From Saccoglossus kowalevskii (Eukaryota; Hemichordata; Enteropneusta; Harrimaniidae): DNA of 25,535 nt. Below the pieces are notes generated by a model. It was not told the origin of the DNA. It saw nothing but the letters and a program-made list of their open reading frames with translations, and ran no database searches. Where the stretch lies: the NCBI RefSeq assembly GCF_000003605.2, contig NW_003156740.1, positions 5,696-31,230 on the forward strand. The letters are read 5' to 3'. The translations under genes and the position numbers were made by a program. The stretch's first letter is position 1, and each line of letters starts with the position of its first letter. Below, in pieces: positions 9,290-23,609 of the stretch.

Positions 9290-9960
9290 CTTGTACTTGA
9301 TTGAGATAGTAATGGAAAAACTGAAAACTTATAATGCAAATCAGAAAATTAATATGAACAGATTTGAGTGTAAAACTAATGAGGCCTGCGCAATGTAACA
9401 TCTATGTACCAAGTTTTATTGAAATGTGATTGGAACCAACAACATTTATGAATTATTATGCAAATTAGGGAATTAATATAAACAGATTTTAACCTCGAAC
9501 TAATCAGGTTTGTACATTGTCATGGAGCATCTTTGTACTAAGTTTCATTGAAATGGAATAATTAGTACTTTAGATATCAGTGTGATGGCTTAAAAATGGT
9601 TAATTATGCAAATTAGTAATTAATATGTACAGATTTTAACCCACAATTATCCAGGTCTGTCTATTGTCCTATAGCATCCATGTACAAAGTTTCATTGAAA
9701 TGTGATGATTAGTACTTGAGAAATCAGTGTGAAAGCTGCAAATTAATTTAATTATGCAATTTATGTAATTAATATGCACAATTATTTATCCTAAAACTAA
9801 TCAGGTCTCTGGGTAGTCCTAAAGGATCTATGTACCAAGTTTCATTGAAATGTGATGATTAGTACTTGAGATATCTGTGGAATAGCTGAAAATGTATCAA
9901 TTATGCAAATTAGGTGATTAATATGCACAAATATTTATCCAAAAACAATACATCTCTGCA
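9290..9960. repeat. Tandem array of ~150-bp units (about four copies plus partial ends)
   Basis: Two landmarks recur in fixed order. ATTATGCAAATTAG-like sequence starts near 9331, 9454, 9603, 9750 and 9900. GTACCAAGTTTCATTGAAAT-like sequence starts near 9404, 9533, 9681 and 9831. Spacing is 123-129 bp for the first unit and 147-150 bp afterwards. Unit identity is moderate, so the array is old. It lies about 0.8 kb upstream of the sulfotransferase start and has no coding potential. Confidence 0.85.
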
Positions 9961-10861: not shown

Positions 10862-12632
10862 GTACGTAATAAAAATGCATGCTCATAACCATTGATGTTT
10901 TTGTATCACAACGTAGCGGGCGAATGGAAACATGAATATTGTCCGAGAATGAAGGATCCACGTTCATGTACAATAATACGTTACAAGTTTTTATAGGCGC
11001 ATATCGATTTAAATGATCCTAGTGTTAAAATACAAACACACGGAAAAGGATAGATAGTGTTTATAAGTTCCTACAAATGTATTTTGATCTGACATGAAGC
11101 ACTGAGTAGATTCTAAAAAAATAAATCAAAGTTACAAGTTTCTGTATTGTTATAACAATTATTTGTTTGTAACGATTGTTTATTTATACATGTGGGTCTA
11201 CAACGCCTCTTGGGTCGGTCTGTAGTCTTTGTGATGATATTTTAGTAATTTCTCGAATATTTGAATCCTTCGAATCAGTTTTGAAACGGTTTATTGTGAG
11301 TGTTAAATGAACATATTATCGATTTGTGATATTTTCGTTAGTTTATGTGCGATACCATCTAGCGTCGAGCATTTGTGTTACGCAAGTCTGTGGAAGAAAT
11401 CATAGCTTTTCTGTGTCGACAAAATACTGATATCCGAAAATAAGAACACCGAATTATCAGAAATGACTGAAATAGAATCACAACGACTTAAGACAGACAC
11501 AAGATGAGATATAATGGTGGTGAGCTGATGCACTTTCTTGTTATTTTTTGTTTTACTTCATTATCTTAATTTTCATTTTTCTGCATAATATTTTTCAGAC
11601 ATATTGACTGTTGGTATAAAACAGCAGAGGGTCGATTACACTCGGATACCGGGAAATACTGAAATGCATTCTACTAGTAAGAAGGTGAAAAGTGAAAAAC
11701 ATATCATCATATTGGCGGGCAAACGAACAGGGTCTTCGTTCCTTGGAGAAATTTTAAACCAAAATACCAAGGTCATGTACATGTTTGAGCCTCTGTTCCA
11801 CTTTACGGAAAAGGTGCTTAAGGGTGACATGAATCCCGATATATTTGATGCAGAATCTGTCGAATTGGTTGACAGTATATTTAAATGCGATTTTAATAAT
11901 AGTCGTTTTATGACACGCCTGCACCCATTGTTTTGTTCCACTAGTAATGCGCTCTCTAAGTCGGCGTTGTGTGGGAAACATAAGGTGCCAACAGACGATA
12001 TTGTAGTTGAAAACTTTACAAATGTCTGTCGCACGTATTTGTACAAGGCTCTAAAAACGATACGTATATATGATATCGAACTCCTGCGGTCGCTGGCAGT
12101 AGATCCAGCATTGAACTTGAAAATTATACATTTAGTGCGCGATCCAAGGGGAATAATGAACTCACGAGAAAATTTAAATAGTAAAAACTTGGATTTTGAA
12201 AGAAAAGACGTCGAGTGGGACGAAGTTACGGATTTATGCAAGGATATAAAGAAGAATTTAAATATCGTTTCTACGTCTGCGTCTTGGCTAAAAGGTCGTT
12301 ATATGCGAATTAGATACGAGGACGTAGCGAAACACCCTCACTCCAAGGCTGAAGACATTTATGATTTTATTGGTTTAGAAATGCCAACAGAAGTCAAGCA
12401 GTGGATTTCAGAAAACACAAATCAAACAAAAGGAAACCAGTTTAGTAGATCTCGCAACTCTTCTGTTGTAGCAACAAAATGGCGAAACGAGATGCCGTTT
12501 TCGGATATTCTCAGCATACAGAAGAAATGCTCTATCAGTATGGCGTTGCTAGGATACAAAGAGGTTAAATCTCCGACAGATTTAAATGAAGAGACGAACG
12601 TGCTGGGACCATTACCCGATTATTTGAGTTAA
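10738..12632 (+). CDS. Carbohydrate 6-O-sulfotransferase (CHST1-7 family), two exons
   Basis: This is a predicted Golgi type II membrane enzyme that would transfer sulfate from PAPS to the 6-O of Gal, GlcNAc or GalNAc in glycans or glycosaminoglycans. Coding exons are 10738-10861 and 11599-12632, joined across a 737-bp GT/AG intron in phase 1, giving 385 aa. Residues 1-16 are a basic cytosolic tail and about 17-36 a signal anchor. The catalytic domain has a 5'-phosphosulfate loop GKRTGSSF (residues 82-89), MYMFEP soon after, a 3'-phosphate loop LVRDPRGIMNSR (220-231), and a family-typical C-terminus (SRNSSVVATKWR... MALLGYKEV). Four Asn-X-Ser/Thr sequons fit a lumenal domain. Length matches the shorter CHST members. 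Which CHST paralogue it is, and so its exact acceptor sugar, cannot be told from this sequence. Confidence 0.9.
10862..11598 (+). other. Sulfotransferase intron 1
   Basis: This 737-bp intron has GTACGT at its 5' end and a pyrimidine-rich TTTTTCAG at its 3' end. It is AT-rich. A mini-frame ATGGTG followed by GTGAGC at 11514-11525 resembles a start plus donor but is out of phase with exon 2. Confidence 0.7.
11599..12632 (+). CDS. Sulfotransferase exon 2 (entire catalytic domain)
   Basis: The acceptor is TTTTTCAG|AC at 11591-11600. The frame is open from there to TAA at 12630-12632. Read without splicing, the first in-frame ATG is at 11664 and an in-frame TAA lies at 11586-11588, which would give a protein with no membrane anchor; this supports joining to exon 1. 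Both PAPS loops and the conserved C-terminus lie in this one exon, an arrangement common in this family. Confidence 0.93.
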
Positions 12633-13736: not shown

Positions 13737-13882
13737 TCAGTCTTTCTTCGTGGCCTTTTTTGGTGACGTTTCTCTATATGTTTTTAACATGACTTCCCTC
13801 ACTTCGTCTGAGAGTTCCTGGACATCAGAAAGTTTTCTGCCTTTGGTACTTATTGGAGGTAGAATAGTCATTGTAAATTCAA
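13737..13882 (-). CDS. AGPAT1/2-like: AGPAT exon 6 (C-terminus and stop)
   Basis: The acceptor is ATTTTTTTCAG|TTG at 13885-13880. The first two bases complete a Val codon. The exon encodes [14 protein letters not shown] and onwards, matching the family's VRVLPPVPT-type block, and ends SPKKATKKD then TGA at 13739-13737. Confidence 0.88.
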
Positions 13883-16800
13883 CTGAAAAAAATATATGAT
13901 GACAATGCGTGCATTACATTTGTGATGAGTTGTGTTTTTCGAGTTCACATGAAAAACTAGTTTTCACTTCAATCACCAGGACTTGAGCTGTGGTGTCATT
14001 AGGCTCAGTCATACAACAACATTAACGATAAGCAGCGAGGATCTGTGGAAAGTGTTGAATATTCATGAGGGTCAGAAAAATCCCAGCATGCAGAGCGTTA
14101 TGCAGATTTGCGTTTTGGTGTAACCAACGAACTAGGACTAACAAGATCTCGAGCCAATTTGCGACTATCATTCAGTTCGTGATTCAAACAAATATTTTCA
14201 ACCAGAAATGGTAATCATAGTTTCACACTGATGACCAATCACGTTACTATGACCACGTGATATCTTACCTGGTTGAAATAGATATTCCTTGGGATTGTAA
14301 CTGTCTTTGTAGTTGGAAAACACCACAGGTACAATAGGAATCTGAGTAGCAAAGTAAATACACAATGATGCGTTATATATCGATTGTGTTATTTCGAAAT
14401 ACCATGGTATCATTACAATTCTTACTGTGACAATATTTAGATCCCAAGGCGATAATTCAAAACTATCGTCTAGGAGAATGATTGTCAGTTACCTCTAGCT
14501 CAGTTATTCACGAGTACTGGTAACCAATCACATTGTTGCGGGATCGTAAACCTTCGCACATTATCCTAGAGTGGTCAACTTACTGTTCTGGGCGAAATCA
14601 AAGAACATACTAGCCACAGTCAAATTACCGACCTGAATGACATGTATATTTTATCACGAACATCAGAACTTTCAAATGAGAATAATTTAAAGGACGGTAG
14701 TCGTCGCGCCACGCATTCGCGAGATATATGGGTCTCATATAAACGAGTACAAACTGAGACGTTACCAAGCTTCAATTAGGTATTCTTTTAGGTGATTGGA
14801 AGGTGTGAAGGAGCCTCCGGCGGTAATTAGTGCAGTCGCGCCCTGGTCAAACCTCATACTTGTGATTCCATTAAAAGAGCGCGTTGGATTGTGGGAAAAT
14901 CAATGTTTATCAACACAAATGTCGCACATGCGCAGCGCGACGACTGTCACCCTAAAAGCTGATTTTGTCCATTTCACCGGGGTACAGGATAATACGAGAA
15001 CTAGGCTTGATTAGTCACGGTGTGTTTTCACCTTTTTACAATGTGTTTAACAGTCTTGCGATTCCAATACAGAGACGTAGTTTCTCTGATTATCATGTCA
15101 GTATACACGGTATATATTCTGCTTCTACTGGCACGCGGTAGTCGACATAAACTCACTCCGTGGTAGAAACGAATTCAAGCGGTGGTCGAAATAATTCACT
15201 CGGTTGTAGAAACGAACTCAATCGGTAGTAGACACGAACTTACTCGGAATATAGAAACGAATTCAATCAGTAGTAGAAAATAATTCACTCGGTCGTAGAA
15301 ACGAACTCAAATTTGCAGTAGACACAAAATTAATCGGTAGTAGGCACGAACTCACTCGGTTGTAGACACGATCTTACTCGGGATTAGGATAAGCACTCAC
15401 TCGGTAGTAGACACAAACTCACTCGGAACGAAGACACGAATTCACTCGGTAGTAGAAAAGAATTCACTCGGTTGTAGAAACGAACTCAATCGGCAGTACT
15501 CGGGATTAGAACACAGGCTCACTCGGTAGGCATGCACTCACTCGGTAATAGATATAAATTCACTCTGTAGTAGAAACGAACTCACTGGTAATAGACACGA
15601 AATTACTCGGGATTAGACACGAGCTAACTCGGTAGGCACGTACTCACTCGGTAGTAGACACGAAATTACTCGGGATTAGACACGAGCTAACTCGGTAGGC
15701 ACGTACTCACTCGGTAGTAGACACGAAATTACTCGGGATTAGACACGAGCTAACTCGGTAGGCACGTACTCACTCGGTAATAGACACGACATTTACTCGG
15801 TATTAGACACGAGCTAACTCGGTAGGCACGTACTCACTCGGTAATAGACACGAAATTTACTGGAGATTAGACACGAGCTAACTCGGTAGGCACGTACTCA
15901 CTCGGTAGTAGACACGACATTTACTCGGTATTAGACACGAGCTAACTTGGTAGGCACGTACTCACTCGGTAGTAGACACGACATTTACTCGGTATTAGAC
16001 ACGAGCTAACTTGGTAGGCACGTACTCACTCGGTAGTAGACACGAAATTTACTCGGTATTAGACACGAGCTAACTCGGTAGGCACGTACTCACTCGGTAG
16101 TAGACACGACATTTACTCGGTATTAGACACGAGCTAACTTGGTAGGCACGTACTCACTCGGTAGTAGACACGACATTTACTCGGTATTAGACACGAGCTA
16201 ACTCGGTAGGCACGTACTCACTCGGTAATAGACACGAAATTTACTCGGGATTAAACACGAGCTAACTCGGTAGGCACGTACTCACTCGGTAGTAGACACG
16301 AAATTACTTGGTACTTAGTAATAGGTGGAATGATATAGTATGGCGTTAAAATTAAACTTTGATCATGAAAAATAGAACAGACACGTACCTGGGCTTGTAT
16401 TGCAACATAGAACGCTCCTTTCTTGAATGGCAGCATATCCAGGTCTGTACTAGTACTACGTGTGCCTTCAGGGTACATCCATACACTGGTCTGAATACAA
16501 TAACAATGAAAATGCGACGACTAGTGAAATCTGGATCAGTTTGACGGATGTGTCGTTCATTTGCATATATTATACGTCATTTTGTATGTAATGCCATAAA
16601 ACTGACAAGAAAAAAGTCGGATGGACCGTCGCTTTAATGAAGATAACGTTTGCAAATTAATAAATATACGAAATGTAATAAAGCCATTATCAATAGTGTT
16701 TGATATGAGATTGGGTGTTATATTGTTTATATTTATATTATTAGTTACTCTGGTCCTTTTTTAAAGTGGGGTAATTTTAGTCAAGAAAAACTTCTTGTCA

Positions 16801-19800
16801 CGTGTCATTGAACAGTTGATTATGTGTTCCTGGGAACAGGAAAGTTGAGTGGGTGACTAATATTATTTAGGTGGTCATATTCAGCAGACTTAATAACATT
16901 AAATGATCTTATCGCATTTATATATATATATATATATTGTGCCAGGCGACAGTTCCGGACATTGAGTGTCACTGTTGTCTCTCCTGACTTTTTTTCTGTA
17001 AATGCAAATTGCAAGTGCTAGTGACGACACATAGATTTTATCGCATTTACGATATCGTTATCACAACCAGATTTAAAAAATGAAGTGGGGTAGTTTCCCA
17101 CGAGATACTGTGTGAAGTCTGAAGATTTGCGCCGTGGGGCGGGTCGCGGTCATGTCTTCGATACAGAAAATGTGATACCAATTTTACCTTTGCTTACATA
17201 TCAGATCACTCGGTCCCGATATCAAAAGTTATACTATTATGGCAATGTGAAGGACTTAGTTACACGGAGATTTTTTTAATTTCGGCTTATCCGTACTATT
17301 CTCACTAGCAAAATGTCCGAATATTGGGCAGTCGGGTGGGACTTCCTAGTACTAGTAATTGCCGTTGTCTCTCGCGAAGGGTGATAACATACCCCATAGT
17401 GCTCACTAGTAAAATCATACATCATTGGGTTACCTCTGTTGCGTGAATAAAAACTACAACATTATTCTTGATATTGCTACAGCCAGTAGTTGATGTAATT
17501 TAGTCCATGACATCATTGCACTTAAAAAAAACGGTTATTTTACTTAATCTTTCCTTTAATATAGCTTATGACATATACAATACATACGAGCCCGCGTACA
17601 AATGTATTACAGATTTCACGTAATTTTATGTCAACATTTGGGGACCTAATAATTACTGTCATAATTGCTGTAGTTTGTAATGAGAGCGAGGCTGGGATTT
17701 CAGAAGTACACGCAGACTAAGTGAAGCGCTACAGCCGTTGTGTCCGAAATAGGTCCCATGTGATGATGCTTAAAGGAAATTCAAACGCCGCGCTGTGACG
17801 AAGCTTAAAAAATGCTTTCAGTTTTGTCGCTGAGGGCAGTCTAATTCGGCATGAAATAGAGCTACATCACGGTAAGTAAGTACATGTACAATCATAGACC
17901 CTACTGGAGGGTCTATGGTACAATGTATGTATAATAAATAAATTCTGTAACGTTACCTTTTTCTTTTTAATAATGTTCACAATGTTGTCTGTAGTTTCTT
18001 TGGCGTTGGTGGCGTTGCGCCGGTCAACGAAAATGGTTCCACATAACCACGCCGCAATACCAAAAGTACCTGCGTATAATAACGACTTTTTCGCCACCAT
18101 TGCGCACCGCTGTGGCCATATCTCCATAGCTCCTGTGAAAGAAAGCGTGGTCATGACAACCTGGTTCCCTTGAGATGCAAAAGGCGAATAAAAACAAATA
18201 ACATAGAATTCTATACTTATGGTGACAATTATTGATCAGATCAGAATAGTTATATTTGGGAGAGACACTCACCAATTTGGTCCATAGTACTTTGATGATT
18301 TCCCACCAGTAGACGTGGTTCGTCTGCGTCCAAATAGTGTAGATTTTTTACGTTGGTTTTTACATCAAATATTTCCTTTGTACACAATGTCCTGATCCAA
18401 AAAGTAAACCATCTGGAAATAAAGTAAAAAGTAAAGACCGTCGGATCCTGAAATTTGGTAATCGGGGAGCCGAGGAAATGTTTTTGTCAGCCGAACGGGC
18501 CGGCGCGCGTCTGTCACGCCTCTCCCTAAATCCGCGCATGGTAATGATAAGTCCCTTCCTTAATTTATTTCCTTCGTTCCACCTCCAGTCCCGCCATCCT
18601 TCCCTCCCTCTTCTTCAAAAATAATTTGCCGTTCTTTCGCAACTTGACCTGTTGTTTTGTCTATACTCGTTCCTTCTGTTTTAAGCAAATAGTTGCCAAC
18701 TTAATAAAACAAATGTATTATCATGATATACACATTGCCCCCATGCCCTTCATACATACGGGTAGTTGTCGGCGTAAACAGACCTCCATCGGTGTGCCCA
18801 TGGTGAATGCTATCTTTTTGTGTAAACGTCCTATCGAACAGGGTTCCAAGGTACAAGTGTCACATGACTTGTCAATAAAAGATATTACAGACCAGGGTTT
18901 GTTAACAATAAGTTCAGTAAAAATATCTGTTGACCTATATTTTAATAATAGGATGAGGTAAACAGTATCGCCCACAATGTCACGTGTTTTATATTTCGCT
19001 ATTTGATGGAAATAACAGTCAATGAGTGTCATTGGTTAATTTCTTCTCGTAAAGACGTCAGTATCGGGTCGTCAGTCTCCATCGTTGATTGCCAATATAC
19101 AGTAATTGGTTATCTTCATCTCTGCTCGTCGCACTCATCGTGTATGCAAATTTTACTTAATTTCAGAGTAGCGTACAGGTGCAAAAATCTAACCAATCAT
19201 AAGACGACTTTATAGAATTCAGGTGAGAAGGTCTTATTAAATTGGACTTTGTCGCACAAGAGATTATAACGCCCTTTTGCTGCCAATTGACAACGTTGGG
19301 ATTTCGCCATTTCATGCGCGCCTGTGGGAGGGACGAATTGCAAATGATTTTCGTGCTTGCACTTCCGTTTCTACCATTGAAATGCGCTACATTACATGTA
19401 TGGATTACTAGTATTGTGAGTGTACAATGAACATGACGGTTAGTAGGGTCACTAACCAATCACCGAACATTCTCGACGTGGGACGAGCGCTAGTCGGTAA
19501 TCGTTCTCGTCTTGTTCGTCTTTAATGTTCGCTGTAATGTCCGGGTTCAATGCAGTTTAGTGTGACTGCTAAAGAGACACGTTGGTCGTATACTCAGGCC
19601 ATGATAGGTTAAGTGTGTACACGGAGTGAGCGTTATATACTCACCTTGTATTAGCTGGATGGAATGGTTTCCACACGGCGCAAGGTATAACAAAAACACC
19701 CAATACTGCATACCATAAATTTATCAAGACGTTTTTGACGTGGTAATGTATTACCCGGCTCAATTGGCAAAGTATATACAATAAGAACACACTGCCAGCA

Positions 19801-19832
19801 ATTAGACCGGCAATCCATTGTAGACAATTCAT
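13737..19832 (-). CDS. AGPAT1/2-like: 1-acyl-sn-glycerol-3-phosphate acyltransferase (AGPAT1/2-type), six exons
   Basis: This ER membrane enzyme transfers an acyl chain from acyl-CoA to lysophosphatidic acid, giving phosphatidic acid for glycerolipid synthesis. Coding exons on the minus strand are 19832-19645, 18412-18273, 18132-17957, 16490-16389, 14341-14269 and 13882-13737. Splice phases 2, 1, 0, 0, 1 all agree and give 274 aa, close to human AGPAT1/2 (about 280). Motif I is NHQSTMD (101-107; His102 and Asp107 the catalytic pair), motif II GTIFVDR (141-147), motif III EGTR (176-179, phosphate binding), motif IV VPVV (206-209). Hydrophobic segments lie at about 5-23, 38-54 and 132-145. The C-terminus is Lys-rich. 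AGPAT1 and AGPAT2 split within vertebrates or cannot be told apart here, so the symbol is generic. Confidence 0.93.
13883..14268 (-). other. AGPAT intron 5
   Basis: This 386-bp intron runs from GTAAGA to TTTTTTTCAG in phase 1. No repeat or open frame of note was found. Confidence 0.8.
14269..14341 (-). CDS. AGPAT1/2-like: AGPAT exon 5 (motif IV)
   Basis: The acceptor is GCTACTCAG|ATT, phase 0, and the donor CCAG|GTAAGA, phase 1. Its 24 codons read [19 protein letters not shown] and onwards, with the VPVV membrane-associated motif IV continuing directly from exon 4 IQAQ. Confidence 0.92.
14342..16388 (-). other. AGPAT intron 4, over half satellite DNA
   Basis: This 2047-bp phase-0 intron contains the 1.2-kb satellite at 15132-16316. 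The remaining part, 14342-15131, has a 72-codon plus-strand frame (14796-15014) with no recognised similarity and several more CpG-containing patches. Confidence 0.8.
15132..16316. repeat. Satellite with 63/64-bp higher-order units built from ~21-bp subunits
   Basis: The basic text is a ~20-21-bp unit, CACTCGGTAGTAGACACGAA. From 15132 to about 15600 the monomers are diverged and irregularly ordered. From about 15600 to 16316 they are locked into a trimer: one subunit with GTAGTAGACACG, one with GATTAGACACGAG, one with CTAACTCGGTAGGCACG. The distance between successive GATTAGACAC copies is 63 bp (15611 to 15674), or 64 where ACATTTACT replaces AATTACT. I count 11 trimer copies by the GAGCTAACT landmark. 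It has no coding frame. Confidence 0.95.
16389..16490 (-). CDS. AGPAT1/2-like: AGPAT exon 4 (motif III, EGTR)
   Basis: The acceptor is TGTATTCAG|ACC, phase 0, and the donor CCCAG|GTACGT, phase 0. The 34 codons include [10 protein letters not shown] and [16 protein letters not shown], the phosphate-binding motif III and its usual continuation. A downstream alternative AG (ACCAG) would be out of frame. Confidence 0.93.
16919..16937. repeat. (TA)n microsatellite
   Basis: About nine TA dinucleotides in intron 3 of AGPAT. Confidence 0.9.
17893..17917. repeat. Perfect 10-bp hairpin, related to one at 22219-22261
   Basis: CATAGACCCT (17893-17902) and AGGGTCTATG (17908-17917) are exact reverse complements with a 5-nt loop, extended imperfectly by TACATGTACAAT on the left and GTACAATGTA on the right. 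Similar text recurs at 22219-22261. Confidence 0.7.
17957..18132 (-). CDS. AGPAT1/2-like: AGPAT exon 3 (motif II)
   Basis: The acceptor is TCTTTCACAG|GA and the donor AAAAAG|GTAACG. The exon completes a Gly codon, then gives 58 codons starting [16 protein letters not shown], with the hydrophobic [16 protein letters not shown] segment carrying motif II. It ends in four consecutive Lys codons just before the donor. Confidence 0.92.
18133..18272 (-). other. AGPAT intron 2
   Basis: This short 140-bp phase-1 intron has the canonical ends GTGAGT and TTTCACAG. Confidence 0.88.
18273..18412 (-). CDS. AGPAT1/2-like: AGPAT exon 2 (catalytic motif I)
   Basis: The acceptor is TTTATTTCCAG|A and the donor is ATTG|GTGAGTG. 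The exon encodes 46 full codons plus one base at each end, ending in [13 protein letters not shown], which contains the NHX4D catalytic motif. It has no long open frame of its own, so it shows up only through splice sites and frame. Confidence 0.9.
18413..19644 (-). other. AGPAT intron 1 (proximal form)
   Basis: This 1232-bp phase-2 intron runs from GTGAGTAT to TTTATTTCCAG. It contains the CpG-dense patch and a block (18841-18985) duplicated near 22865-23037. Frames of about 100 codons on both strands overlap this duplicated block but have no recognised similarity. Confidence 0.75.
18430..18540. promoter_or_regulatory. CpG-dense patch immediately upstream of AGPAT exon 2
   Basis: Line 18481-18540 alone holds about nine CpGs, including GGCCGGCGCGCG at 18498-18509, in otherwise AT-rich CpG-poor DNA. 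A pyrimidine-rich stretch on the plus strand follows to about 18616. It lies in intron 1, just upstream of exon 2. It could be an internal regulatory element or an inserted foreign fragment; no promoter motif was recognised. Confidence 0.35.
19645..19832 (-). CDS. AGPAT1/2-like: AGPAT proximal exon 1 (N-terminal membrane segment)
   Basis: ATG at 19832-19830 is the first after an in-frame TAA; reading [13 protein letters not shown] the exon encodes 62 codons plus two bases. It carries two hydrophobic stretches separated by a basic YHVKN linker, as in AGPAT N-termini. The donor is ACAAG|GTGAGTAT, phase 2. A near-identical copy lies at 23379-23192. Confidence 0.88.
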
Positions 19833-19980
19833 GTGTACCGCCAGTGGTTATACGTAGCGTTACCAACAACGTCCCCTATACGTGTGATCGCAAAACAACT
19901 GAGTAACGTCGAAAGGTTCACAGTCCACGGATGTATGGTTTAAGGTATTACGTTTGACCCATATTAACCGACAGACTCGT

Positions 19981-20008
19981 ATAATATATCTCGTATGATG
20001 TGACGTCA
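19981..20008 (-). promoter_or_regulatory. Candidate proximal AGPAT promoter: CRE plus TATA-like
   Basis: TGACGTCA, a perfect cyclic-AMP response element palindrome, is at 20001-20008. GATATATTAT (minus strand, 19990-19981) follows it in the direction of transcription. A start about 30 bp further on would give a 5' leader of about 120 nt before ATG 19832. The same order of motifs, with a changed CRE, is kept in the distal copy. Confidence 0.4.
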
Positions 20009-21690
20009 CACACGTATTTCCTGCGGCCATAAATGCGTGTAAGTTAAGGTGACCACATGCAGGAAGTGTGTAACTCGGGCCCCCTTGCAAACCGTCGCTT
20101 GTAACGTAGGCACGCTCCAGTTGAGTCGAAGCATATATACAAGGCAGAATTTGATTCGTCGAAAAAAAACCTGCCAGCAAACAAGCTGTTCTCTGACTGG
20201 TCTGACTGCTATGTGTTAAGGTTCAGTAGCCAATCAGGAACAATCTTCTGTGAAGATTTGCATTGCAGTAAGTATCTCTGGCGTAATAGAACCTGCCATT
20301 AAACATATGTAAATTGCTAGAAATCACCAGCGGCTCACTATAGTGGTAGTCACGGTTGTCGGCGGGGGCCATAGCGTGTCATTGTCTACAAACATGCTTC
20401 CATGAGCCTTTGCGTTTTTAGCGTGTGTTGCTATCGTCGCTTGGGACTCACTGACCGAGGCGCTCAGATCCAAATTTTAAAAAATGAGCCAAAGCGCGTA
20501 TTATAGAATGTACTGTAAAATACTTTATTTTAGCTGGAATTAATTTTCGCTGAAAAAAAAAAAAACTATTTTCAATCTGTGGTACATCGTGGCCATTCCA
20601 GGATGTAAACTCGTTCTTACAAATAAATAAATACAACATCAGTATATTAGACCCATTTTATATGATATTTCAATCGTGTGCATGCGACGCAAAACTTAAT
20701 ATATCGCCAAATATTTTGATTTTAATTATTTCCATGAGATAGCAAATTTAGTATTTTTTGGCAAATTTTTAATTCATTATCAGGTTCAGTGTGTTTACAT
20801 TTCCGCGAATTATCATTATGGCATTTTACGTCTGTCAAATAACGGCCAAATAAATACGTGGAATCATTAATTACTAAGGACCTGGCGTAGAATTGGAAAT
20901 TACTCCAAATAAACAAATGTCAAATTCGGGAATAGGATAATAGTATATTTGGTTATTGATGAAATAGTAGGTTCATCGTGACCAATAATAAAATGATTGG
21001 TTGTCCAACTGTGGGCGAATCTTTTATTTCTGTGCTAAATGTGCAACACCAAAGTCCCGCTATTTATTATCATGGTTGTTCAACCATAGTCGTCTGCACT
21101 AGTATCGCGAGTACTAAGTTTGGTTTACTCAGTGTTTACTATGTTGGTAAAACCGCGCAAATTCATTTTACCGCCACTTTACAGCGGTTTTCACACAGAC
21201 ACCAGTCAATTCCGTTTCCCAATGACTGAAGCAATTTCACATCGACCAGACACGCCCCAAAACAGATGACGAGATTTGACAGGATCGGCCTATGCGCGTG
21301 CGTATAAAACAGCTGGTACTAATATCCTAATTTCCTAATAACTTCTTTTGCACTCGTACAATGCAAAATACATATTTAATTAGGTTGGTTGGCCATCAAG
21401 TATCATCCTATGGCACCCAATTCATATATCACCAATACCATAGTACAGAGTTATGTTAACAACGAGTCAAAAATAAGACTAATATACTAAATTTTTATTT
21501 AATTAATTGTAAGGATGAGATTACATTGTGAAATGGCCACGATGTGCCACGGATCATTTTCACTGAATCATTTCTTCAGCAAAAATAGCGAAAATTAATT
21601 CCAAGTGAAAATAAAGCATTTATAGTAAGTTGTTAATTTCAACCAGCGTTATTCAAACCGGTAAGGATGCAACATTAATTACATGTGTTA

Positions 21691-21750
21691 CCCCTGCAAT
21701 GGTTAGCGTGTCCACCCACCGTCCGGGAGATTGTGGGTTACAGTAAAGGG
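21691..21750 (+). repeat. tRNA-derived SINE fragment
   Basis: CAATGGTTAGCGTGTCCACC resembles the A-box half of tRNA-derived SINEs (TGGTTAGCGTG). GAGATTGTGGGTTACAG follows at about the usual B-box distance but has a decayed B-box. There is no intact cloverleaf or 3' acceptor stem, so I do not call a functional tRNA. Confidence 0.4.
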
Positions 21751-22218
21751 ATTTCAAATTGATTAATCACCCGCGAGTAGCAACGAGTGAGACCTAATAT
21801 TGGTACACGTGTCATTGATAGTGTAACGCCAGTGGACCCAGATGGTACGCCTGAATGGGTGTCCACTCAGAGTATGCATTCTCTATGGCAGCGTGCATTA
21901 TTGTGTTTACTAGTATTATGAAGATACGATGTGAGCGATTTAGGGATATTTTCGTGGATATCATATTACTGTAATGGGAAGATAAAATAGCCATCGAAGC
22001 GTTATAAAACATGTGTATAGTAGTTTACGGACAGTCTGGCTATTTTAACTTCATTAGTCACGGTAGCAGTTACAACTGAGAAATGTGTATTAATTTAATA
22101 TTCTAATACAAGGTATAATAAATAGCTATATATAAAACACCTAGACAATAATGTGTAGATAATTAAACTACCGACTTCTTGTGTGAAGCATTGAAATGAT
22201 ACGTTCCCTAAACACTTT

Positions 22219-22261
22219 GTACCATCATAGATTCTTAAAGTATGCTGGGGGTCTATGGTAC
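22219..22261. repeat. Decayed hairpin element related to 17893-17917
   Basis: GTACCAT (22219-22225) pairs with ATGGTAC (22255-22261). The text CATAGA...GGGGGTCTATGGTAC lines up with CATAGACCC...AGGGTCTATGGTAC at 17893-17921, with an extra stretch of bases in the loop. Confidence 0.5.
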
Positions 22262-22678
22262 TGTCAACTAAAGACACGAAACACTGCGTTTACTATACTG
22301 CATTACAACAATGGTATTTTGAAAACAGATTGACCTTAGATAATTGATTGGCCAATCTTGAATGTAGGTTAGACACCACGTGACTTTGTGAACTACCATG
22401 CTATATAAAGATAGCCTGGTAGTCATCACCGATCGTGAGGGGTCGTCATACTCTCTCGTACTGGCAATGGTTCTATGCGTAGCAATAAGGCTATGACCTA
22501 TCAACCTACCAGTCACTTCAACTAATTGTATTATGATCTACTGTCTGAAGTTATCCACAATAAATAGTATGTAATATAACAACTATACCGCTGAGATCGT
22601 ACTTTCCGAACACTTTTTATTGGTAATACAGTGCCGTGGCAAAAAAAAACCTCTCTAACGTCGAGCGTGGAATTTGTT

Positions 22679-22711
22679 ATTTATTTATTTAATTATTTAT
22701 TTATTTATTCT
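22679..22711. repeat. (TATT)n microsatellite
   Basis: A run of TTAT/TATT repeats with one interruption (TAATT) in the spacer. Confidence 0.9.
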
Positions 22712-23191
22712 TGCAATGTACCTATAATTAAAAGCAATAAATCAAATATATTTATATTTGCCTCCATCTATGTTATGCATACAGGTCGTCAATGTCGTGG
22801 TCCCATCAATTTTTCTAGGGTGCAAGTTTGTTGATACCTCAACATGTCAAACTATTATCAAAATGGGTTCCAAGGTACAAGATTACATGCATTTAACGGA
22901 TCGATAAGTTTAACAACATTTTAACAGATCAGGCTTTGTTACATTATTGACATTATGAATAGAAAAACAAATGTTTAAGAACTGTTGACCTATATTTAAG
23001 TAGACCTTATGCTGACGTAAACAAAATCGCCCACAATGAATGACACGTGCGTGGTGTGTGTTCATTTCTTGCATGGCGGTCAACAGTCACCGTAACATAA
23101 TGGCACCTCGCCGCAGTTTATTTAAACCTGTGGGTCCTGAAACGCGATGACTGTATATAGACTACCGCCTCACAGCGTGGAGCATACTCAC

Positions 23192-23379
23192 CTTGTATTA
23201 GCAGGATCGAACGGGTTCCAAACGGTGAACGGTATAACAAAAACGCCCAATAGTGCATACCATAAGTTTGAAGAGACGTTTTTGACGTGATAATGTACTA
23301 CCCGGTTAAATTGGCAAAGTATATACAATAAGAATACACCGCCAGCAATTAGACCGGCAATCCACTGTAGACAATTCAT
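23192..23379 (-). CDS. AGPAT1/2-like: AGPAT distal (duplicate) exon 1, likely alternative first exon
   Basis: This exon has the same 188-bp length, the same [13 protein letters not shown] start, the same ACAAG|GTGAGTAT donor and the same phase 2 as the proximal exon 1, so it can splice to exon 2 at 18412. By hand alignment there are 22 nucleotide differences in 188, changing 11 of 63 residues (for example Ser14Gly, Leu24Phe, Leu36Ser, Ile37Ser, Cys51Phe, His58Asp). Three further in-frame ATGs lie upstream to 23403 before a stop; I chose 23379 because it matches the proximal copy. No second exon 2-6 set is visible. Confidence 0.75.
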
Positions 23380-23592
23380 GTACATCGCCATTGGTCGTAT
23401 CATCCGTTCTCATCCGGGTCTCCCACGGATACACTGAATCATTGAAAGATATCGACGTACAAGTACTAGCCGGGGATGTCTGTGGTACAGTTCGTAAACA
23501 GCAAGAACCAAAACAACAGTGTAACGTATACGAGTTCACACTTCACGCAAGCTATCGTATTACGATTGGCCCCACATTAACCGCCAGTCTCG

Positions 23593-23609
23593 TATATTAT
23601 ATGACGTTA
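23593..23609 (-). promoter_or_regulatory. Candidate distal AGPAT promoter: CRE-like plus TATA-like
   Basis: On the minus strand TAACGTCA (23609-23602) is directly followed by TATAATATA (23601-23593), then ACGAGACTGGCGGTTAAT, which matches the same positions at the proximal copy. The CRE is one base off the perfect palindrome seen proximally. Distance to ATG 23379 is about 210 bp. Confidence 0.35.

Follow-up and report, generated by a model that had tools for sequence, protein, structure and literature searches.

In jawed vertebrates the PGM1 gene has duplicated first coding exons (1-1 and 1-2) with two promoters and common later exons (PMC7101342), and in UGT1A a common set of exons is joined to tandem first coding exons that are homologous to one another and have individual promoters (PMC9013439). 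Here we analyse a stretch of 25,535 nucleotides of the Saccoglossus kowalevskii genome (the window, C4616:5696-31230, where C4616 is contig NW_003156740.1), whose minus strand carries a six-exon gene for a 274-residue PF01553 acyltransferase that resembles UGT1A in having tandem homologous first coding exons ahead of common ones. The window contains both first exons, a distal one (1d) and a proximal one (1p), together with a single catalytic core, duplicated flanks, and intact reading frames and splice donors. Judged from the DNA, part of the gene was indeed duplicated, and one AGPAT most likely has two N-termini as a result; we put the probability at roughly 0.7 that a segment was duplicated in tandem and that both copies were kept as alternative first exons of one AGPAT1/2-like gene.

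Gene model and comparison of the two first exons

Either first exon, joined to exons 2-6 through GT-AG introns, gives an 825-nt frame of 274 amino acids plus a stop codon. The coding exons of the model are the following.

23192-23379, minus strand: distal first coding exon (1d), from the shared ATG to the donor; open frame, donor GTGAGTAT
19645-19832, minus strand: proximal first coding exon (1p), from the shared ATG to the donor; 88% identical to 1d
18273-18412, minus strand: shared exon 2, with NHQSTMD; no second copy was found near 1d
17957-18132, minus strand: shared exon 3
16389-16490, minus strand: shared exon 4, with YPEGTR
14269-14341, minus strand: shared exon 5, with IPIVPVV
13737-13882, minus strand: shared last coding exon 6, with the stop codon

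The predicted protein has a PF01553 domain at residues 82-211 (123.6 bits against a curated cut-off of 23) and the motifs NHQSTMD, YPEGTR (PEGTR) and IPIVPVV from exons 2, 4 and 5. NHX4D and EGTR are AGPAT motifs, present here as NHQSTMD and PEGTR, and the predicted enzyme is named AGPAT1/2-like from its motifs. The single solved relative found is 5kym, a 1-acyl-sn-glycerol-3-phosphate acyltransferase (E 4.7e-11, residues 90-264).

An earlier sequence-only reading of this DNA had described two 188-bp exons with the same start, donor and phase and about 88% identity. The coordinates, lengths, donor and phase were all exact on recomputation; 22 of the 188 bases differ (88.3% identity) with zero indels, and both copies have the donor GTGAGTAT and the same phase (188 nt, 2 nt over). 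In the output of a repeat finder the two copies form a single 212-bp repeat without gaps (19637-19848 and 23184-23395, 88%). The common start holds in that the same ATG is present in both; the frame of 1d, however, continues open upstream with three further in-frame ATGs (see below). The differences fall 6, 4 and 12 times at codon positions 1, 2 and 3, with 13 substitutions in codons whose amino acid is changed and 9 in other codons. The amino acid differs in 11 of 62 complete codons (residues 14, 24, 25, 28, 36, 37, 43, 51, 52, 55 and 58). These sites lie in the hydrophobic segments and the linker, where the earlier reading had placed them, and two of them (55 and 58) immediately after the second segment. 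Nonsynonymous (dN) and synonymous (dS) divergence are 0.092 and 0.276 by NG86 and 0.107 and 0.187 by YN00.

Two further AGPAT-type genes provide a frame for this divergence. Paralogue A is a complete AGPAT gene that lies upstream on the same strand (about C4616:41451-46393), and gene C, the third of the type, is on another contig, C1919; each has one clear first exon. The 1d and 1p products are 83% identical to each other, whereas both are 52-53% identical to that of paralogue A's exon, and so the exon duplication looks younger than the split from paralogue A. Where A and C agree, 4 of the 11 replacements can be polarised, 25 and 52 to the distal branch and 28 and 58 to the proximal one.

A single set of downstream exons

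We searched the whole assembly (572 Mb, 4830 contigs) for further copies. With 1d DNA as the query there were two places only, 1d itself and 1p. A search with the whole protein gave 19 matches among 20 candidates scored, namely the exons of the window gene, paralogue A and gene C, and one weak match (E 0.07). The core of paralogue A is identical to that of the window gene at 139 of 210 aligned residues. At the motif where the window gene has YPEGTR, paralogue A has FAEGTR.

As the earlier reading had stated, one set of exons 2-6 accompanies the two first exons. The protein search of the assembly found no second set for 1d; 25536-31520 and the 5695 bases that precede the window read N and lay outside it. 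The only nearby set is that of paralogue A, which owns a first exon; since paralogue A is upstream of 1d, its exons cannot ordinarily be spliced behind 1d. A further copy could lie within the N stretch 25536-31520. A scan for a third first exon, covering bases 1-201230 of the 378739-base contig apart from its runs of N, gave no clear candidate (a single weak match containing a stop, E 0.03-0.06, was set aside), nor was there a clear one beside gene C in C1919:115501-142072 (weak matches at E 0.07 and above were set aside).

Extent of the duplication

Similarity between the two copies is not confined to the exons. The flanking features are these.

23509-23602, minus strand: candidate promoter block for 1d, whose homologue lies ahead of 1p (73% over 100 columns)
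19891-19989, minus strand: candidate promoter block of 1p, homologous to the 1d block
22736-23038, minus strand: duplicated intron 1 parts behind 1d (22982-23038, 22856-22881, 22736-22797), matching the 1p side
18703-18979, minus strand: matching intron 1 parts behind 1p (18927-18979, 18832-18857, 18703-18771)

The upstream block and the three intron 1 pieces have the same order and orientation in both copies. When eight segment pairs of the two copies were compared with 300 shuffles each, no shuffle reached the real score for the exon, the upstream block or the first intron island; 1 of 300 did so between the islands and 3 of 300 in the stretch beyond them. There was no similarity above chance in the far 5' part (113/300), the 5' gap adjoining the exon (290/300) or the intron from +9 to the island (205/300). 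In genome-wide searches for dispersed repeats among the flank pieces, the distal upstream block and the distal intron piece each matched itself alone, and as the proximal counterparts were also missed, this excludes close copies only. The upstream and intron DNA of paralogue A was also compared with the upstream blocks, the intron pieces and exon 2. Of ten such comparisons, nine did not outscore all 200 shuffles; the tenth, of the distal intron piece with the intron of A, did, and homology there is possible, if unproven.

The flanks also bear on whether the pair is an assembly artefact in which two haplotypes were placed in tandem. The four aligned non-coding blocks differ at 71 of 318 positions (22%, K 0.265) with 11 gap events and are separated by unalignable stretches; alleles of one species usually differ by less than 22%. 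The blocks were picked because they could be aligned, so the true non-coding change is larger than this K. The flank divergence and the finding of the exon in only two places in the assembly led us to reject collapsed haplotypes, an explanation in whose favour nothing was found and that we regard as scarcely credible.

A second alternative is that 1d was orphaned when a former third tandem AGPAT gene lost its exons 2-6 by deletion, whether or not the neighbouring core later took 1d into use. The complete paralogue upstream on the same strand shows that this locus does duplicate; the detected homology, however, ends inside intron 1 (18703 and 22736), before exon 2, no remnant of exon 2 was found near the distal copy, and no remnant of exons 2-6 was found between the first exons. 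We consider such an origin quite improbable, and it is in any case compatible with the present use of 1d as an alternative first exon.

Proposed use of the two first exons

If the pair arose by tandem duplication within one gene, the duplicated segment would have run from the promoter region through the first coding exon into the beginning of intron 1, and would have been copied after the split from the tandem paralogue. In transcripts from the distal promoter, removal of a 4779-base intron would join 1d (23192) to exon 2 (18412), and 1p would go with that intron for want of a clearly good 3' splice site. In transcripts from the proximal promoter, which would never contain 1d, the intron between 1p (19645) and this shared exon 2 would measure 1232 bases. 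Because 1p is without a clearly good acceptor and 1d lies outside the proximal transcript, choice of promoter would be choice of N-terminus, and the gene would give two enzymes with a common catalytic core and different 63-residue N-terminal hydrophobic parts. In a crude count of acceptors over the 368 bases before the 1p ATG, 3 AGs have 12-13 pyrimidines out of 20, compared with 14-17 in five real acceptors. Two promoters would be the simplest reading because each exon has a homologous block upstream. Motifs that we take to be of the cAMP response element (CRE) type (TGACGTCA at -176 in the proximal copy and ACGTCA at -228 in the distal copy) serve as a lead only. We infer that both promoters, the distal one included, may be in use, and that the two anchors may behave differently.

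The exact distal N-terminus may also differ in length. The 1d frame is open back to 23409, and between the shared start and the preceding in-frame stop of 1p there is no ATG. The additional distal feature is as follows.

23380-23403, minus strand: possible in-frame N-terminal extension of 1d, with ATGs at 23403, 23391 and 23385

The distal N-terminus may thereby be up to 8 residues longer, an extension that would include an arginine; which start codon is used depends on where transcription begins.

Predicted N-termini

The first hydrophobic segments of the two products are nearly equal in Kyte-Doolittle peak over 19 residues (2.04 distal, 2.02 proximal). The second segment peaks at 1.58 in the distal product against 2.24 in the proximal one, 2.18 in A and 2.31 in C, and has Ser-Ser at residues 36-37 where the proximal product has Leu-Ile. 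Counting Lys and Arg against Asp and Glu, the net charge over the 63 residues is +2 for the distal product and +4 for the proximal one. Structure prediction for the exon pair, with an input of two sequences only, gave one long helix at a predicted local distance difference test score (pLDDT) of 74.3, an uninformative result. Human AGPAT1 and AGPAT2 have three or four predicted transmembrane segments (PMC4280512), and human LPAAT-delta has a segment ahead of motif I (PMC6688108).

The different anchor or endoplasmic reticulum placement that the sequence-only reading had proposed is a prediction only. In its strong form it would make the pair a switch, worked by choice of promoter, that sets how an enzyme of phosphatidic-acid synthesis is anchored in the membrane, the core being inserted differently or sent to another membrane or membrane domain, and this we find doubtful.

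Probable maintenance of both copies

A further alternative sees 1d as a leftover copy on which selection acts weakly or not at all; it may be transcribed rarely and has so far escaped being broken. We simulated a pair with one copy neutral and one constrained, demanding also no stop, a retained start and GT, and no indel. In a leftover copy 14-19 amino-acid differences would be expected, about 18 of them at the divergence of the aligned flanks, and probably indels or stops; 11 differences and no indel or stop are seen. P was 0 to 0.0043 in six settings with equal branches and 0.0002 to 0.054 in eight further ones. Two settings in which both copies were constrained gave P 0.80 and 0.36. The non-coding K is near the NG86 dS and above the YN00 dS, and the exon is free of gaps.

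The dN/dS check suggested by the earlier reading points to constraint and is weak by itself. In a codon likelihood analysis of four exons (1d, 1p and those of paralogues A and C), omega 1 for both copies compared with a shared omega of 0.43 gave p 0.076, short of rejecting neutrality on its own. Joined with the absence of indels, stops and splice lesions, however, the comparison disfavours a neutral copy, and maintenance of both copies appears likely, though not proven.

Several observations weigh against two functional first exons. Omega 1 is unrejected on the distal branch alone (p 0.23), as a leftover copy would have it, and on the proximal branch alone (p 0.91); the free estimates of omega are 0.26 distal and 1.31 proximal. 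The simulation test weakens, to 3-5%, with a shorter neutral branch or with lower total divergence and indel rate: its top P values of 0.034, 0.039 and 0.054 came with a short neutral branch or with lower divergence and halved indels. Exon divergence could be low through gene conversion between the copies as well. Divergence in the upstream blocks is about that of the remaining aligned flanks, so that these blocks are evidence of common origin rather than of function. Of the four second hydrophobic segments the distal one is the weakest, which may reflect different insertion or relaxed selection, two causes that these data do not separate. The acceptor margin is small (13 against 14), and the count covers 368 bases, short of 20201-23191. 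Finally, upstream of the distal starts a 35-codon out-of-frame open reading frame (ORF) opens at 23413; in a distal transcript it could overlap them and damp distal translation. Upstream ORFs occur on the proximal side as well, provided that transcription begins far enough up (56 codons from 20030). We judge a leftover copy unlikely and favour two alternative first exons that are both maintained.

Other features of the window

One mobile element lies between the first exons.

20575-21557, no strand assigned: foldback transposon between the first exons, with 85-bp inverted ends, outside the duplication

It widens the spacing of the first exons by about 1 kb. A first look gave 2369 candidates, and the 40 of them that were scored contained 146 matching pieces; long matching pieces elsewhere are mostly 85-97% identical, and the copy number is high.

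Intron 4 of the AGPAT gene contains about 11 copies of a 63-64 bp tandem repeat (15587-16305), with looser relatives from 15187. Tail to tail with the gene, a 347-amino-acid plus-strand open frame (11589-12632) has sulfotransferase domains PF00685 and PF13469. A 129-bp unit is present in three direct copies at 9488-9957, spaced 147 and 150 bp.

Comparison with known systems

Should both exons be in use, a single gene would supply two forms of a central enzyme of lipid synthesis, distinct only in the hydrophobic N-terminus, and the locus would be a natural swap experiment on the role of the AGPAT N-terminus. No duplicated first exons in AGPATs were met among the listed titles and abstract beginnings on AGPATs and on exon duplication in a largely open-access literature (most subscription journals lie outside it), which does not show their absence from print.

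Among described systems, the bacterial PlsC two-helix motif is similar in that its N-terminal helices precede the catalytic domain and sit at the membrane (PMC6688108); the PDB match spans residues 90-264 only, so that the likeness is one of position and not of demonstrated homology. The 5' cassettes of chelicerate sDscam are similar in that promoter and 5' coding exons were copied together, upstream of a constant part (PMC4835542), but those cassettes have two or four exons, encode immunoglobulin domains and form arrays (at least 40 cassettes in one gene). UGT1A has thirteen first exons that encode the substrate-binding part, whereas here there are two, which encode a hydrophobic N-terminus. 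As in PGM1, there is a paralogue with a single first exon (PGM5 there, paralogue A here), and the copies align without indels. The PGM1 isoforms, however, are established and their exon products are 51% identical, while those described here are 83% identical, form a hydrophobic membrane part and are known from DNA sequence alone. On the predicted gene model, the architecture is of a known kind, that of PGM1 and UGT1A, here in an AGPAT.

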